NCBI RefSeq assembly: GCF_004116725.1
Contig: NZ_PDKG01000001.1
Span: 186,001 to 250,000, forward strand
Origin: Arcobacter sp. CECT 8986
Lineage (GTDB): Bacteria; Campylobacterota; Campylobacteria; Campylobacterales; Arcobacteraceae
Direction of reading: 5' to 3'
DNA: 64,000 nucleotides
The number at the start of each line of letters is the position of its first letter. The first letter of the stretch is position 1. Of the stretch, positions 12,269 through 18,171 are shown one piece after another. A model generated the notes under the pieces. It ran no database searches, had not been told where the DNA came from, and saw only the letters and a list, made by a program, of their open reading frames with translations. A program made the position numbers and the translations under genes.

Positions 12269-13618
12269 ATGTATAAACTTTTTTTATACTTTTTCGTAAT
12301 TACATTTGCATACTCTCAAACAATTAGCTTTGAGGAAGTACTAACTGATACACTAAACAATAATAACGATTTAAAAAACTCAAAACTTGATATTGATATT
12401 AGTTCATTAAATATAGATGAAGTAAATGCTTTAAATTATGGTAAATTAAACTTCGAATCACAAGTAAATAGAACTAATCATGCAGGTTATGTATTTAATT
12501 CTAAACTATCTTCAAGAGAGGCTACATTTAAAGATTTTGGTTTTGCACAAATGGGTGAACCAATGAACACACAACCAACTGATTTAAACTATCCAGAAGC
12601 AAGAACAAATATAAACAATAAATTAACTTATGATGTTGCACTTTTTACTGGATTTAAAATATCTACACAAAAAGATATAAGAAAATTAGAAAAAAAGATA
12701 AATACTTTAAAACTAAATATGAATAAAAGAGAACTATCTTTTGAAGTATTTAAAGCATACAATGGTGCAGTTATTGCAAAAGAGTATATCAAAGCTTTAA
12801 ATGAAGCTATTAAGACTGTAAATAATATAGTTAAATCATCTTCAATATTTTACAAAGAGGGATTGATTACATCAATTGATGTAAAACAAGCAAAAGCTTA
12901 TAAATTTGAACTTTTAGCAAACTTAGCCAATGCAAAAAAAAGATTTAATTTTGCTATTTCATACTTAAGATTTTTAAGTTCAAATAACAATATTACAGAT
13001 GTAAATAATATAAAAGATATAAAACTAAAACTTTATGATAAAAGTGAGCTATTACAACAAGCTTTAACTAAAAAAGATAGCATAAAAGCTTCAATTTTAT
13101 ACAAAGATATTATGAAAAAAAGTATTGATGTAGCAAAAGGTGATTACTACCCTACTTTATACTCTCACTTGGAGTATGGATATAATGACAATAGGTATAA
13201 TTTTTCAGATGACAAAGATTATTATAATGCTGTTATTGGCTTAAAATATACACTTTTTGATAACTCAAGAGAGATAAAAGTACAAAAAAATAAAATAAAC
13301 TATATAAAAGCTAAAATAAATCATGAAAAACAGATAAATTATATAAAAATGCAAATAGATAATTCTATTGATGATTTAAATACAAAAATTGCAATATTAA
13401 GTGCAAAGATAAGCTCTTTTGATTTAGCAAAAAAGATATTTGAACAAGCTAATAAAATGTATAAAAACCACTTAATATCTATGACTGATTTATTAAAACA
13501 AAAATCTGATTTTGAAGTTGCTCAAGCAGAACTATTAAATGCAAAATATCAAAGATATGTAGCAGAAGCAAAAGTTGCAAAGATTATAAATTTAGATTTT
13601 TTAGATTTGAAGGATTAA
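12269..13618 (+). CDS. TolC-family outer-membrane efflux protein
   Basis: A 449-aa protein with a signal peptide (LFLYFFVITFAYSQ) and two long alpha-helical halves, as in the TolC/OEP family. Examples are the coiled-coil stretches around residues 130-215 and 345-445 (e.g. MTDLLKQKSDFEVAQAELLNAKYQ). It would be the outer-membrane channel of the tripartite pump encoded by the next three genes. GGAG ribosome site. The stop is followed after 1 base by the adaptor gene. Confidence 0.9.
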   Translation: MYKLFLYFFVITFAYSQTISFEEVLTDTLNNNNDLKNSKLDIDISSLNIDEVNALNYGKLNFESQVNRTNHAGYVFNSKLSSREATFKDFGFAQMGEPMNTQPTDLNYPEARTNINNKLTYDVALFTGFKISTQKDIRKLEKKINTLKLNMNKRELSFEVFKAYNGAVIAKEYIKALNEAIKTVNNIVKSSSIFYKEGLITSIDVKQAKAYKFELLANLANAKKRFNFAISYLRFLSSNNNITDVNNIKDIKLKLYDKSELLQQALTKKDSIKASILYKDIMKKSIDVAKGDYYPTLYSHLEYGYNDNRYNFSDDKDYYNAVIGLKYTLFDNSREIKVQKNKINYIKAKINHEKQINYIKMQIDNSIDDLNTKIAILSAKISSFDLAKKIFEQANKMYKNHLISMTDLLKQKSDFEVAQAELLNAKYQRYVAEAKVAKIINLDFLDLKD

Positions 13619-13619
13619 A

Positions 13620-14399
13620 ATGATGAAACTATTCATAGCTATATTTTTAATGATAAGTTGTTTATATGCACAAACAATACAAACATCAGGAACTGTAATA
13701 TCTGATAATCAAAAAGTAATTACAAGCAGACATATGGGATATATAAAACAAGTAAATGTTACTGAGGGTTCATATGTAAAAAAAGGTGATTTACTTTATA
13801 TTATTGACTCTACTTCTTTAAATTCTCAAAAAAATGAGATATTAAATAATCTTGAAATATTAAAAAATAATCAAGATAATTTATATATAAATCTAAACAG
13901 ATATAAAAGATTATATAAAGATGATTTAGTATCAAAATATGATGTAGAACAATTAGAACTAAAATATAACAATTTAAGAAATCAAATTCAAATAGTAAAA
14001 GAGAAGTTAAAAAATATAAATAATGAGTTTAAATATCTTAAAGTAAGAGCTCCAATAGATGCAATGGTAATTAAAAAATCAATAAATGTTGCAGATATGG
14101 CAATAGTTGGACAACCTGCTTTGATACTAACAGATATGAATACATTAAAAGTAAAAACACAAATAAATGAAAGTGATTTATTGAATATAAAATCAGCACA
14201 AGATGTTAAAATATTTATTCCATCATTAAACTTAACTACAAAAGGAAAAGTAAGTGCAATAATTCCAAATATTGACACAACTTCACACTCTTTTACAATA
14301 AAAATCGATTTTTTAACAAAAAACAAAAATATATATCCAGGTATGTATGCACAAATAGATATTTTTGTAAAAGATAATGGAAATAAAAATGAACAATAA
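13620..14399 (+). CDS. Periplasmic adaptor subunit of RND efflux pump (HlyD/MFP family)
   Basis: A 259-aa membrane-fusion protein, compact compared with the usual 350-400 aa. Signal peptide at residues 1-17; lipoyl half-motifs around VNVTEGSYVKKGDLLYII (about 43-60) and FKYLKVRAPIDAMVIKK (about 139-155), with a coiled-coil hairpin between; then a beta-barrel domain ending near residue 250. It links the TolC-like channel to the RND permease. The start codons MMK are alternative ATGs. It overlaps the permease start. Confidence 0.9.
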   Translation: MMKLFIAIFLMISCLYAQTIQTSGTVISDNQKVITSRHMGYIKQVNVTEGSYVKKGDLLYIIDSTSLNSQKNEILNNLEILKNNQDNLYINLNRYKRLYKDDLVSKYDVEQLELKYNNLRNQIQIVKEKLKNINNEFKYLKVRAPIDAMVIKKSINVADMAIVGQPALILTDMNTLKVKTQINESDLLNIKSAQDVKIFIPSLNLTTKGKVSAIIPNIDTTSHSFTIKIDFLTKNKNIYPGMYAQIDIFVKDNGNKNEQ

Positions 14400-15966
14400 A
14401 AATGACTTTAGTACAAAGTTAAACCCAAATCTAAATATTGCAGGTAGATTATCTTTAGGTTTTATAAATCATCCTTTAACTGCTATATCTATTTTTTTAA
14501 TTTTGGCGCTTGGTTATATTTCATTAATTGTTATGCCAAGAGAAGAAAATCCACAAATAAAAGTAAGTGGTGGAGCTGTAATAGTTGCAATGCCAGGAGC
14601 AACTCCAAGCCAAATACAAAAAGTAATAATAAATCCTTTAGAAAAGAAATTAAGAGAGATAAAAGGAATAGAACATATTTACTCTTTTGCAAAAGATTCT
14701 ATTGCAATTGTACAAGTGCAATACTTTATTGGAGAAGATAAAGAGAGTTCAAACTTAAAATTATATAACCAAATTATGAGAAATATGGATATGATGCCAA
14801 AAGGCGCTATGACTCCAATAATAAAAACAATGGATATTGATACAGATATACCAATAACAACTATTGCATTTTATTCTCAAAAAAAGAATAATAAAGATTT
14901 AATCTCACAAACTGAACTTTACAAACAAATAGATAAATTAAGTAAAGAACTAAATAAAATAGACAATGTTGCTTTAATTAATCTAAAAGGTGAAAAGAAA
15001 GAGCAATACAATATTTTACTTAACTCAAATAAAATATCTCAATATAATCTATCAATGGTAGAAGTTCTAAAAAGAGTAAAAGCACTTGCATATAATACTC
15101 CAAATATTAATGGTGATACAAAAAACAATGAGCTATTAGTATTTGGAATAAAACAAGCAATAAAATCTTCTAAAGATATAGAAAATATAATTATTTCATA
15201 TCAAAATGGTATTGCAGTGTACTTAAAAGATATTGCAAAAGTTGAAAAATCTTATGATATTCAAAATAAAAAAGAGGCTATTTTATATCAAAGAGATAAA
15301 AATAACAACTTTGAAAAAACTTCAAATATTACAATGTCAATTTCTAAACTAAAAGGTGCAAATTCAGTTGTAATAAATGAAGAGATTTTTGATTATATGG
15401 ATAGTATAAAAGATGATTTACTAAAAAAACATATAAAATATACTATTACACGAGATGATGGATACACTGCAAATAATGCAGTTAATTCCTTAGTTCAAAA
15501 TCTTTTAATCTCTATTTTTATTATAGCTATACTTTTAATATTTTCATTAGGATTTAAAGAAGCGATGATTGTTTCACTTGCTGTTCCTATGATTTTATCT
15601 GTTACTTTGTTTGTTGGATTTATTTTAGGTGAGACAATAAATAGAATTACACTTTTTGCACTTATTGTATCTTTGGGAATGTTAGTTGATGCTGCAATTA
15701 TTGTAATAGAAAATATTCATAGACATAGAAAAGACAAACCAGATGCTAATATAGAGATTTTATCCATTAATGCAACAAATGAGATTGGAAATGCGACAAA
15801 TATAGCAACAATTGCTATTATTCTTACATTTTTACCAATGTTTTTTGTAGGTGGAATGATGGGACAGTTTATGCACCCACTTCCTGTATTTGTACCAATT
15901 GCTTTAGTTGTCTCTTTAATTGTTGCTTATGCTTACACACCATATTTAGTAAAAAAATTTTTATAG
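14389..15966 (+). CDS. RND efflux permease, N-terminal half (TM1-TM6)
   Basis: About 525 aa forming the first repeat of an AcrB-type transporter. TM1 follows GRLSLGFINHPLTAI. Porter subdomains PN1/PN2 lie at about 60-340 (GAVIVAMPGATPSQIQKVI), then TM2-TM6. The TM4 proton-relay region reads LGMLVDAAIIVIENIHR, i.e. one Asp where AcrB has two. The frame ends with TAG after YTPYLVKKFL, exactly where TM6 gives way to the linker before TM7; the second half follows in the same frame three codons later. An ATG 12 bases upstream (14377) is also possible; I prefer 14389, which has GGAAA 5 bases before it. Confidence 0.85.
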   Translation: MNNKNDFSTKLNPNLNIAGRLSLGFINHPLTAISIFLILALGYISLIVMPREENPQIKVSGGAVIVAMPGATPSQIQKVIINPLEKKLREIKGIEHIYSFAKDSIAIVQVQYFIGEDKESSNLKLYNQIMRNMDMMPKGAMTPIIKTMDIDTDIPITTIAFYSQKKNNKDLISQTELYKQIDKLSKELNKIDNVALINLKGEKKEQYNILLNSNKISQYNLSMVEVLKRVKALAYNTPNINGDTKNNELLVFGIKQAIKSSKDIENIIISYQNGIAVYLKDIAKVEKSYDIQNKKEAILYQRDKNNNFEKTSNITMSISKLKGANSVVINEEIFDYMDSIKDDLLKKHIKYTITRDDGYTANNAVNSLVQNLLISIFIIAILLIFSLGFKEAMIVSLAVPMILSVTLFVGFILGETINRITLFALIVSLGMLVDAAIIVIENIHRHRKDKPDANIEILSINATNEIGNATNIATIAIILTFLPMFFVGGMMGQFMHPLPVFVPIALVVSLIVAYAYTPYLVKKFL

Positions 15967-15975
15967 GTAATTAAT

Positions 15976-17631
15976 ATGAAACTAGAAAATTTTATACACG
16001 AAATTCTTGAATCAAAATATAAATCTAATTTAGTCTATTTAATTACTTTAATTTTATTTATACTATCTATTTTAACATTTCCTACAAAGATTACAAAAGC
16101 AAAAATGCTTCCAAGTAAAGATTCAGATACTTTCTCAATCTATGTTGATTTAAAAGATGGTTCATCTTCTACAAAAACAAAAGAAGTTACTCAATGTATC
16201 TCAAATGAGTTACAAAAAAATGAAAATATTACAAATGTTTCTGTATTTATAGGTGAAGGTCAACCACTTGATTTTGCTGCACTTGTTAAACTTAGTGCAT
16301 TAAAAGATAAACAATGGCAAGCAGAAATGATGGTAAATATAAAAAAAGAGAATAATAGAGATATCTCAAGTTATAATTTGGTATCAAAAATAAGAGAGCC
16401 TATAAAACAAAAATGTACAAAATATGATGCAAATATTAAATTTGTAGAACTTCCAGCAGGACCACCTGTGTTAGCTTCACTTGTTGCACAAGTTTATGGA
16501 GGAAAAGATTTTTATAGTAGAAGAGATTTTGCAAATAAGATAGCAAAAATATTTGAAAAGCAAAAAACATTAGTTGATATTGATGTTATGGCAAGTAAAG
16601 CTTTTGATAAATATGAATTAATACTTGATAATAATAAAATAATAAAAAGTGCAGTTAGTTTAGAGCAGATAAAACAGATAATATTTTTGGCTTTTGAAGG
16701 AGTAAATATCTCTGTTGTAAATGACAGCAGTGCACAAAATCAAATACCAATATTTCTAAGACTTGATGATAGTAGGTTAATAGAAAAACAAGATATAAAA
16801 TCATTAAACGACAGATTAAAAACTCTAAAATTGAAAAATGCATATAATCAAATGGTAAGTGTTTCTGAACTTGTAAAAATAAAAACAGTAAAAAAAGAGC
16901 CTGAAATAACATCAAAAGATTTAAAACCTGTAATTAATGTAATTGCAGAGACAAATAAAGATAGTCAAATATATCCACTTTTAGATGCAAGAGAAGATAT
17001 GATAAATAGTTTGGAAAATGATTATGAAATTATAAAAACAAATATGTTGAATCTATCTTTTATAAATAAAAAAACAAATGAGAGATTTGATTTAGTATTT
17101 GATGGAGAACTAAAAGTTACAATTGATACATTTAAAGATTTAGGTGGAGCTTTTATTATTGCATTGGTGCTTATATTCTTTCTTATGGTTATGTATTATA
17201 AAAGTTTTGCAATATCAGGAGGTATTGTTTTATCAAGTTTTATATCAATTATTGGAGTTATTTTAGCTCACATAATAATGAATATATTTACACAAGATAC
17301 ATTCTATTTAACAGCAACATCTTTAATAGGATTTATTGGTCTTATTGGAATAAACTCAAGAAACTCTACTTTAATTATTGATTTTACAGTACAATTAATA
17401 AAACAGGATAAATTAAAAATAAATGAAGCAATAGCAAAGGCTACTGCAACAAGGTCAAAACCTATTATACTAACTGTTTTAACAATGGTATTTGCATCAA
17501 GTTTACTTGCAACTGATGCAGTATTTGGAGGTTTGGGTGTTGCTTTAATTGGTGGAACACTTATATCTTATGTAGTATCTATGTTTTTTGTACCTGTAAT
17601 TATAAAAAATCATATTAAAAAGCTTTTATGA
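15976..17631 (+). CDS. RND efflux permease, C-terminal half (TM7-TM12)
   Basis: A 551-aa second repeat of the RND permease. TM7 (YLITLILFILSILTFP) is near residue 20-35, the porter domain with PAGPPVLASLVAQVYGG at about 160-176, and TM8-TM12 at about 390-550, including SLIGFIGLIGINSRNSTLIIDF. It has its own ATG, preceded by TATAGGTAATTAAT, a modest ribosome site. Together with the first half it makes a complete transporter of about 1,080 residues. Both halves look intact, so this is either a genuine two-subunit RND pump or a recent nonsense mutation with internal restart. Confidence 0.85.
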   Translation: MKLENFIHEILESKYKSNLVYLITLILFILSILTFPTKITKAKMLPSKDSDTFSIYVDLKDGSSSTKTKEVTQCISNELQKNENITNVSVFIGEGQPLDFAALVKLSALKDKQWQAEMMVNIKKENNRDISSYNLVSKIREPIKQKCTKYDANIKFVELPAGPPVLASLVAQVYGGKDFYSRRDFANKIAKIFEKQKTLVDIDVMASKAFDKYELILDNNKIIKSAVSLEQIKQIIFLAFEGVNISVVNDSSAQNQIPIFLRLDDSRLIEKQDIKSLNDRLKTLKLKNAYNQMVSVSELVKIKTVKKEPEITSKDLKPVINVIAETNKDSQIYPLLDAREDMINSLENDYEIIKTNMLNLSFINKKTNERFDLVFDGELKVTIDTFKDLGGAFIIALVLIFFLMVMYYKSFAISGGIVLSSFISIIGVILAHIIMNIFTQDTFYLTATSLIGFIGLIGINSRNSTLIIDFTVQLIKQDKLKINEAIAKATATRSKPIILTVLTMVFASSLLATDAVFGGLGVALIGGTLISYVVSMFFVPVIIKNHIKKLL

Positions 17632-17670: not shown

Positions 17671-18171
17671 ATGAAAAGTAAATTCAAAAAGTTAGTAAAA
17701 GAGATTTTAAAATTATCAATTATTTTAATAATAACAATGAATATTATCAGTTATTTTAAATCAACACAACTAAATAAAGAAAACCTAGCTATAAATGAGT
17801 TTAAACTGCTTGAAAACTCAAAATATACAATAAAAGACAATAAACCATTAGTTATACACTTTTGGGCTACATGGTGTCCTATTTGCAAAATAGAAGCATT
17901 TAATATTCAAAAACTTTCAAAAGATTATAATGTAATAACAATAGCAGCACAATCAGGAACAAATGAAGATATAAAAAAGTATATGAAAGAGAATAATGTT
18001 GATTTTAAAGTAGTAAATGATAAAGATGGGTATTATTCAAAAAAATTTAATATTGAAGTATTTCCTACAACTTTAATTTATAATGATAAAAAAGTTCTAA
18101 AATTTAGTGAAGTAGGATACACTTCAACTTTGGGACTATATTTAAGAGTTTGGTATAGTAAGCTATTTTGA
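17671..18171 (+). CDS. Membrane-anchored thioredoxin-like protein (TlpA/ScsD type)
   Basis: A 166-aa protein with an N-terminal membrane anchor (about residues 12-29) and a periplasmic thioredoxin fold. The active site WATWCPICK is at about 66-74 (CxxC Cys70/Cys73), with the cis-Pro loop in VFPTTLIYND. It resembles ScsD/TlpA protein-disulfide oxidoreductases, which reduce or isomerise disulfides outside the cytoplasm. It follows the RND permease by 39 bases and is probably co-transcribed. No DsbD-like partner is adjacent. The ribosome site is weak. Confidence 0.83.
   Translation: MKSKFKKLVKEILKLSIILIITMNIISYFKSTQLNKENLAINEFKLLENSKYTIKDNKPLVIHFWATWCPICKIEAFNIQKLSKDYNVITIAAQSGTNEDIKKYMKENNVDFKVVNDKDGYYSKKFNIEVFPTTLIYNDKKVLKFSEVGYTSTLGLYLRVWYSKLF

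Follow-up and report, generated by a model that had tools for sequence, protein, structure and literature searches.

In the 64,000-nucleotide stretch of the Arcobacter sp. CECT 8986 genome analyzed here (the window), two consecutive genes on the plus strand each encode one half of an RND permease. The first gene (positions 14377 to 15966) encodes an N-chain of 529 amino acids with TM1 to TM6 and the first periplasmic loop, and its product matches positions 5 to 489 of the 1,021-position ACR_tran profile (1.7e-75). The second gene (15976 to 17631) encodes a C-chain of 551 amino acids with an I-alpha-like helix, TM7 to TM12, and the second periplasmic loop, matching positions 518 to 1016 of the same profile (6.7e-39). 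Conserved residues and the predicted fold, described below, agree with both assignments. The N-chain open reading frame (ORF) ends with TAG (15964 to 15966), followed by GTA ATT AAT and, in the same frame, by the ATG of the C-chain gene at 15976. Together with the next base, the stop forms TAGG (15964 to 15967, plus strand), the predicted ribosome-binding site of the C-chain gene, which lies 8 bases 5' of the ATG and contains the N-chain stop. Thus, the in-frame split by TAG plus three codons reported in the initial annotation is exact in the sequence, as are the second ORF's own ATG and TAGG-type ribosome site. The position that it gave for the break, between the two transporter repeats at the linker to TM7, agrees with the Pfam boundaries and with a fold model in which the linker follows just after TM6.

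Upstream, the operon contains a gene for a TolC-type outer-membrane factor of 449 amino acids (12269 to 13618, plus strand; Pfam OEP, 3.3e-46), found at the same position in most split operons, and a gene for a periplasmic adaptor of 259 amino acids (13620 to 14399, plus strand; TIGR01730 RND_mfp, 1.9e-39) that overlaps the N-chain gene by 23 bases. The genes of an RND tripartite system are therefore present together. Downstream lies a gene for a thioredoxin-like protein of 166 amino acids (17671 to 18171, plus strand; AhpC-TSA, 2.8e-12), whose membership in the operon is doubtful. It directly follows the permease genes in 7 of 83 loci, from members of the genus and a few Aliarcobacter-type loci, and so offers no reliable clue to the substrate. 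Sulfur or redox neighbors were considered as another substrate hint and set aside as too weak, since rhodanese, DsbA, sulfur-transferase, or cytochrome genes occur near two of four distant single-chain plasmid relatives and not near the other two. Five further RND permeases were found in the genome, all of them single chains with open frames of 1,025 to 1,385 amino acids.

Distribution and origin of the split

A split N-chain is present in four of the five other genomes of the genus, with frames of 519 to 531 amino acids, and the fifth, G004, lacks an orthologue. The N-chain of genome G003 is 98% identical to that of the window, and its TAG and spacing are the same, which rules out an assembly error. 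In the remaining three (G001, G002, and G005), the two halves lie in different frames. Across the family, the N-chain had a match at an E value of ≤1e-60 in 87 of the 104 genomes, representing 15 of the 20 genera. This search yielded 89 rows, of which 87 were full length (frames of 509 to 550 amino acids) and two were fragments.

Searching the order with the N-chain gave matches at an E value of ≤1e-48 in 275 of the 398 genomes, covering 62 of the 87 genera; among the matches listed, the split form occurs in further families as well. In 30 genomes picked by hand to cover families and the score range, 18 had the split form and 12 a single chain (frames of 1,076 to 1,238 amino acids), one genome being counted in both groups, and one had a fragment only. 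The C-chain matched in 163 of 397 genomes of the phylum, all inside the order among the matches listed. At every N-chain locus examined, an adjacent C-chain was found where the contig permitted, including L101, L106, and L173, where it was located directly downstream by tblastn. Split RND permease genes are also plasmid borne, as seen in Sulfurovum mangrovi and Sulfuricurvum kujiense (L193 and L194). NCBI annotates the halves on these plasmids as two coding sequences, each an "efflux RND transporter permease subunit."

A search of open-access papers returned no description of a naturally split HAE-type permease. The passages listing efflux systems in four Arcobacter papers (PMC8300790, PMC7767855, PMC2147049, and PMC7365950) do not mention one, and the published AreABC, AreDEF, AreGHI, and EP numbers as they appear in such passages could not be matched to the window's operon. 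Excerpts of a Nitratiruptor metal-stress paper (PMC10092412) contain nothing bearing directly on a split permease.

All 51 split rows of an 83-row tree grouped in one clade (SH-aLRT, 100), and CusA fell with the outgroup. A 48-row tree that included four relatives from other phyla, with a long-branch warning on some outgroup rows, again recovered the split rows (27) as a single clade (100/100; all 200 bootstrap trees), nested among single-chain relatives that fall outside it. One old gene fission is the simplest reading of this single clade. An ancestral single-chain gene would have been split once, early in Campylobacterales, in the linker that joins TM6 to the I-alpha helix on the cytoplasmic side. 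Some of the single-chain relatives (L174, L175, L178, and L179) carry a long, charged, E/K-rich N-terminal extension before TM1.

The initial annotation had weighed a natural two-polypeptide RND pump against a recent nonsense mutation accompanied by restart or readthrough. A recent nonsense mutation, or a sequencing error, in a single-chain gene with accidental restart would leave what the window displays, an in-frame TAG just three codons ahead of the next ATG, and an apparently real case affects another RND gene in genome G004. However, a full-length split row exists in 86 of the 104 family genomes, and relatives of only 50 to 80% identity are split too, with TAG, TAA, or TGA as the stop and with the halves in all three relative frames. 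In addition, both halves have low dN/dS values (see below), and the split rows make up one deep clade. This origin has next to no chance of being correct. The comparisons instead indicate that the split is old and common to many related bacteria, and the outcome that would have spoken for an error or a strain-specific mutation, namely orthologues that are all fused, is contradicted by how common the split is among relatives.

The G004 gene (L037:2885-6019) encodes a different RND permease with an in-frame stop inside TM7 and the nearest in-frame ATG 11 codons on. Similar full-length copies are found in other genomes of the genus, and, in contrast to the window's split, this one has the appearance of a nonsense allele or of an assembly error.

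Architecture of the gene junction

We compared 91 nonredundant split pairs, many of which come from close relatives and are not independent; the count omits L101, L106, and L173, and L122 is cut by its contig end. C-chain start codons were assigned by rule. On this basis, the distance from stop to start ranges from −14 to +12 bases, with 32 junctions at −4 (ATGA), 12 at −1, 29 at +8 or +9, and 18 at other distances. N-chain stops are TGA in 36, TAA in 31, and TAG in 24 junctions. In 88 of the 91 junctions, a stretch ahead of the C-chain start matches TAAGGAGGT over at least 4 bases; the corresponding figure for ATG codons inside N-chain ORFs is 130 of 1,175. Of the 34 junctions in which the gap is 8 to 12 bases, 33 have a ribosome site that includes the stop codon.

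These data also bear on programmed recoding, by which a full-length permease would arise, be it as the chief product or as a minor, regulated one, through readthrough of the stop in the in-frame cases or through frameshifting at ATGA, often after a run of A. The two halves share a frame in 19 of the 91 junctions, including the window, so a minor read-through product is conceivable there, and many of the −4 junctions come after A-rich codons. In the other 72 junctions, the halves are in different frames and cannot be joined by stop readthrough, and one and the same recoding event could not cover all three relative frames. Moreover, gap and frame vary freely among relatives, whereas the ribosome site is kept. 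We therefore consider recoding improbable.

Both genes are under purifying selection, as judged from Nei-Gojobori dN/dS values against G003, Malaciobacter halophilus, and G002 (0.090, 0.151, and 0.149 for the N-chain; 0.133, 0.139, and 0.158 for the C-chain). Of the two possibilities in the initial annotation, it is the natural two-polypeptide pump that stands, given a split conserved in the family and order, a single origin, a ribosome site of its own for the second gene, and selection on both halves. The two chains would be translated from one mRNA, and a ribosome finishing the N-chain would do so on or beside the C-chain ribosome site. Reinitiation is very probable and would lead to near-equal amounts of the chains.

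Fold, proton-relay residues, and adaptor

The read-through sequence of N- and C-chain was modeled as one chain from an alignment with 17 relatives, including single-chain ones, and yielded a mean pLDDT of 75.0 and a pTM of 0.65, with pLDDT below 50 at residues 531 to 544. Predicted helices comprise TM6 (501 to 528), a helix at the I-alpha position (535 to 545), and TM7 (547 to 566). Projected on AcrB, the break falls after residue 497 and before about residue 520. In Foldseek and VIA-align comparisons, the model matched whole RND protomers, the best being BpeB (7wls_C; Z, 45.0; 948 residues; rmsd, 4.4), with the top rows tied within 1 Z as to the nearest subfamily. The model shows halves predicted to fit complementary parts of one AcrB-type protomer; since it was built as a single chain and with single-chain relatives in the alignment, it supports complementarity and does not imply assembly.

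In AcrB, D407 and D408, K940, R971, and T978 are the charged or polar proton-relay residues of TM4, TM10, and TM11. By alignment to AcrB, the TM4 aspartate D407 corresponds to residue 438 of the N-chain, and R462, R493, and T500 of the C-chain occupy the positions of K940, R971, and T978. Positions 407, 940, 971, and 978 are D, R, R, and T in all 65 split rows compared, whereas alanine occupies position 408 in 58 of them, aspartate in 6, and serine in 1. Single-chain relatives have D407 and R940 in 16 of 16 rows and R971 and T978 in all 12 rows that reach them (four are cut). The relay residues expected of an ACR_tran permease are thus present with substitutions, K940 to R and, in most split rows, D408 to A, and because of the latter, the proton relay differs from that of AcrB. 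With its residues shared out between the two chains, the relay is incomplete in either chain by itself.

Half-size RND proteins exist, and N- and C-chain are separate polypeptides, so the halves might act separately, for instance as homo-oligomers, and not as one protomer. This is very improbable in view of the divided relay, the C-chain gene adjacent at every N-chain locus examined (contig permitting), and the predicted fit of the chains to complementary halves of a protomer. Our preferred explanation is that the operon very probably encodes, in the order outer-membrane factor, adaptor, permease N, and permease C, a natural two-chain HAE-type RND permease with its partners, for which efflux and assembly are inferred. 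N- and C-chain would form one AcrB-like protomer in the membrane, and the pump would be a trimer of such pairs. The proton relay would then form only at the interface of the chains, the N-chain contributing the TM4 aspartate and the C-chain the TM10 arginine and the TM11 arginine and threonine.

The most surprising part of the system, and an unexpected companion of the split, is the adaptor's loss of its membrane-proximal domain. When aligned with AcrA, MdtA, CusB, and the adaptors of single-chain relatives, the window's adaptor ends 16 residues past the PGMY motif of the beta-barrel and lacks this domain. Using a profile built from 17 split-operon adaptors, we found that all 80 distinct adaptors encoded directly upstream of split permeases have a tail of 0 to 11 residues past the profile match and no membrane-proximal domain, whereas those beside single-chain relatives (11 of 11) keep the domain, with tails of 72 to 75 residues. 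Membrane-proximal domains have been described as exclusive to adaptors of RND transporters and of ABC transporters with prominent periplasmic domains (PMC4446572), and EmrA, an MFS adaptor, as being without one (PMC4158417).

No adaptor gene was found directly upstream in 19 split loci, in some because the contig ends and in others because there truly is none. L110, L123, and similar split loci have the order TetR-like gene (labeled by eye), outer-membrane factor, N, and C, with no adaptor gene. In L166, L172, L186, and L194, N and C stand without an adjacent same-strand adaptor or channel gene.

It is conceivable, albeit rather doubtful, that the whole pump has been remodeled: the permease was divided, the adaptor of the same lineage lost its docking domain, and some lineages lack an adjacent adaptor gene, which would make for a differently docked, partly adaptor-independent exporter whose chains are maybe swapped between pumps in genomes with two or three. 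If docking persists, the loss would show that the membrane-proximal domain is dispensable for it. The two-chain form allows the repeats to be expressed, mutated, and labeled separately, so that the way in which they link proton flow with transport can be tested in a natural setting. It also calls for caution in annotation, as split permease genes resemble interrupted pseudogenes and may be overlooked in surveys.

Comparison with known RND systems

Like the HAE-type RND permeases AcrB, MexB, CmeB, and MdtB (PF00873), the window's pair has two repeats, each with a TM helix, a periplasmic loop, and five further TM helices, and the two halves match PF00873 end to end and in register. It also shares the whole-protomer fold, the TM4 aspartate, and the TM11 arginine and threonine with them. 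In contrast to these permeases, it consists of two chains and carries the substitutions at positions 940 and 408. Because ACR_tran permeases are expected to be one polypeptide of about 1,000 to 1,050 residues, and the window has chains of 529 and 551 amino acids with a stop conserved in relatives, we class the pair as a variant of this family. None of the NCBIfam HAE-1 subfamilies (RND_permease_1/2, MdtB, MdtC, AcrB, AcrD, and OqxB) reached its cutoff for the halves; the best, RND_permease_2, scored 235 and 97 bits against a cutoff of 1,250 that is meant for whole chains.

Heavy-metal RND transporters of the CusA/CzcA type were rejected as a class for the pair, as arginine and not the CusA-type glutamate stands at position 940 in all 65 split rows and CusA falls with the outgroup. 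SecD/SecF was also rejected, as the N-chain scored 20.2 bits (4.3e-4) with SecD_SecF_C, under the cutoff of 20.5, versus 255 bits with ACR_tran. SecD/SecF is described as a natural two-chain RND relative with 2 × 6 TM helices (PMC8277102) and resembles the window's pair in this respect, but it aids protein translocation and is no tripartite exporter.

The published picture of an RND exporter is a homotrimer of one long polypeptide or, rarely, an MdtBC-like heterotrimer (PMC8277102). MdtBC likewise has two permease genes, but MdtB (1,040 amino acids) and MdtC (1,025 amino acids) are each full length, whereas each of the window's genes encodes one half. The single-chain relatives in the order (e.g., L174 to L184) are about 40% identical over both halves and have the same operon order; they differ in having one chain of about 1,080 amino acids or more and, as shown above, a complete adaptor. 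The closest parallel to the break itself is MexB, reported to work as two halves when severed at the N terminus of I-alpha (PMC4359379, citing Eda et al. 2003). That cut lies at the same place as in the window's permease, but it was made in the laboratory, whereas the division described here is natural and conserved.
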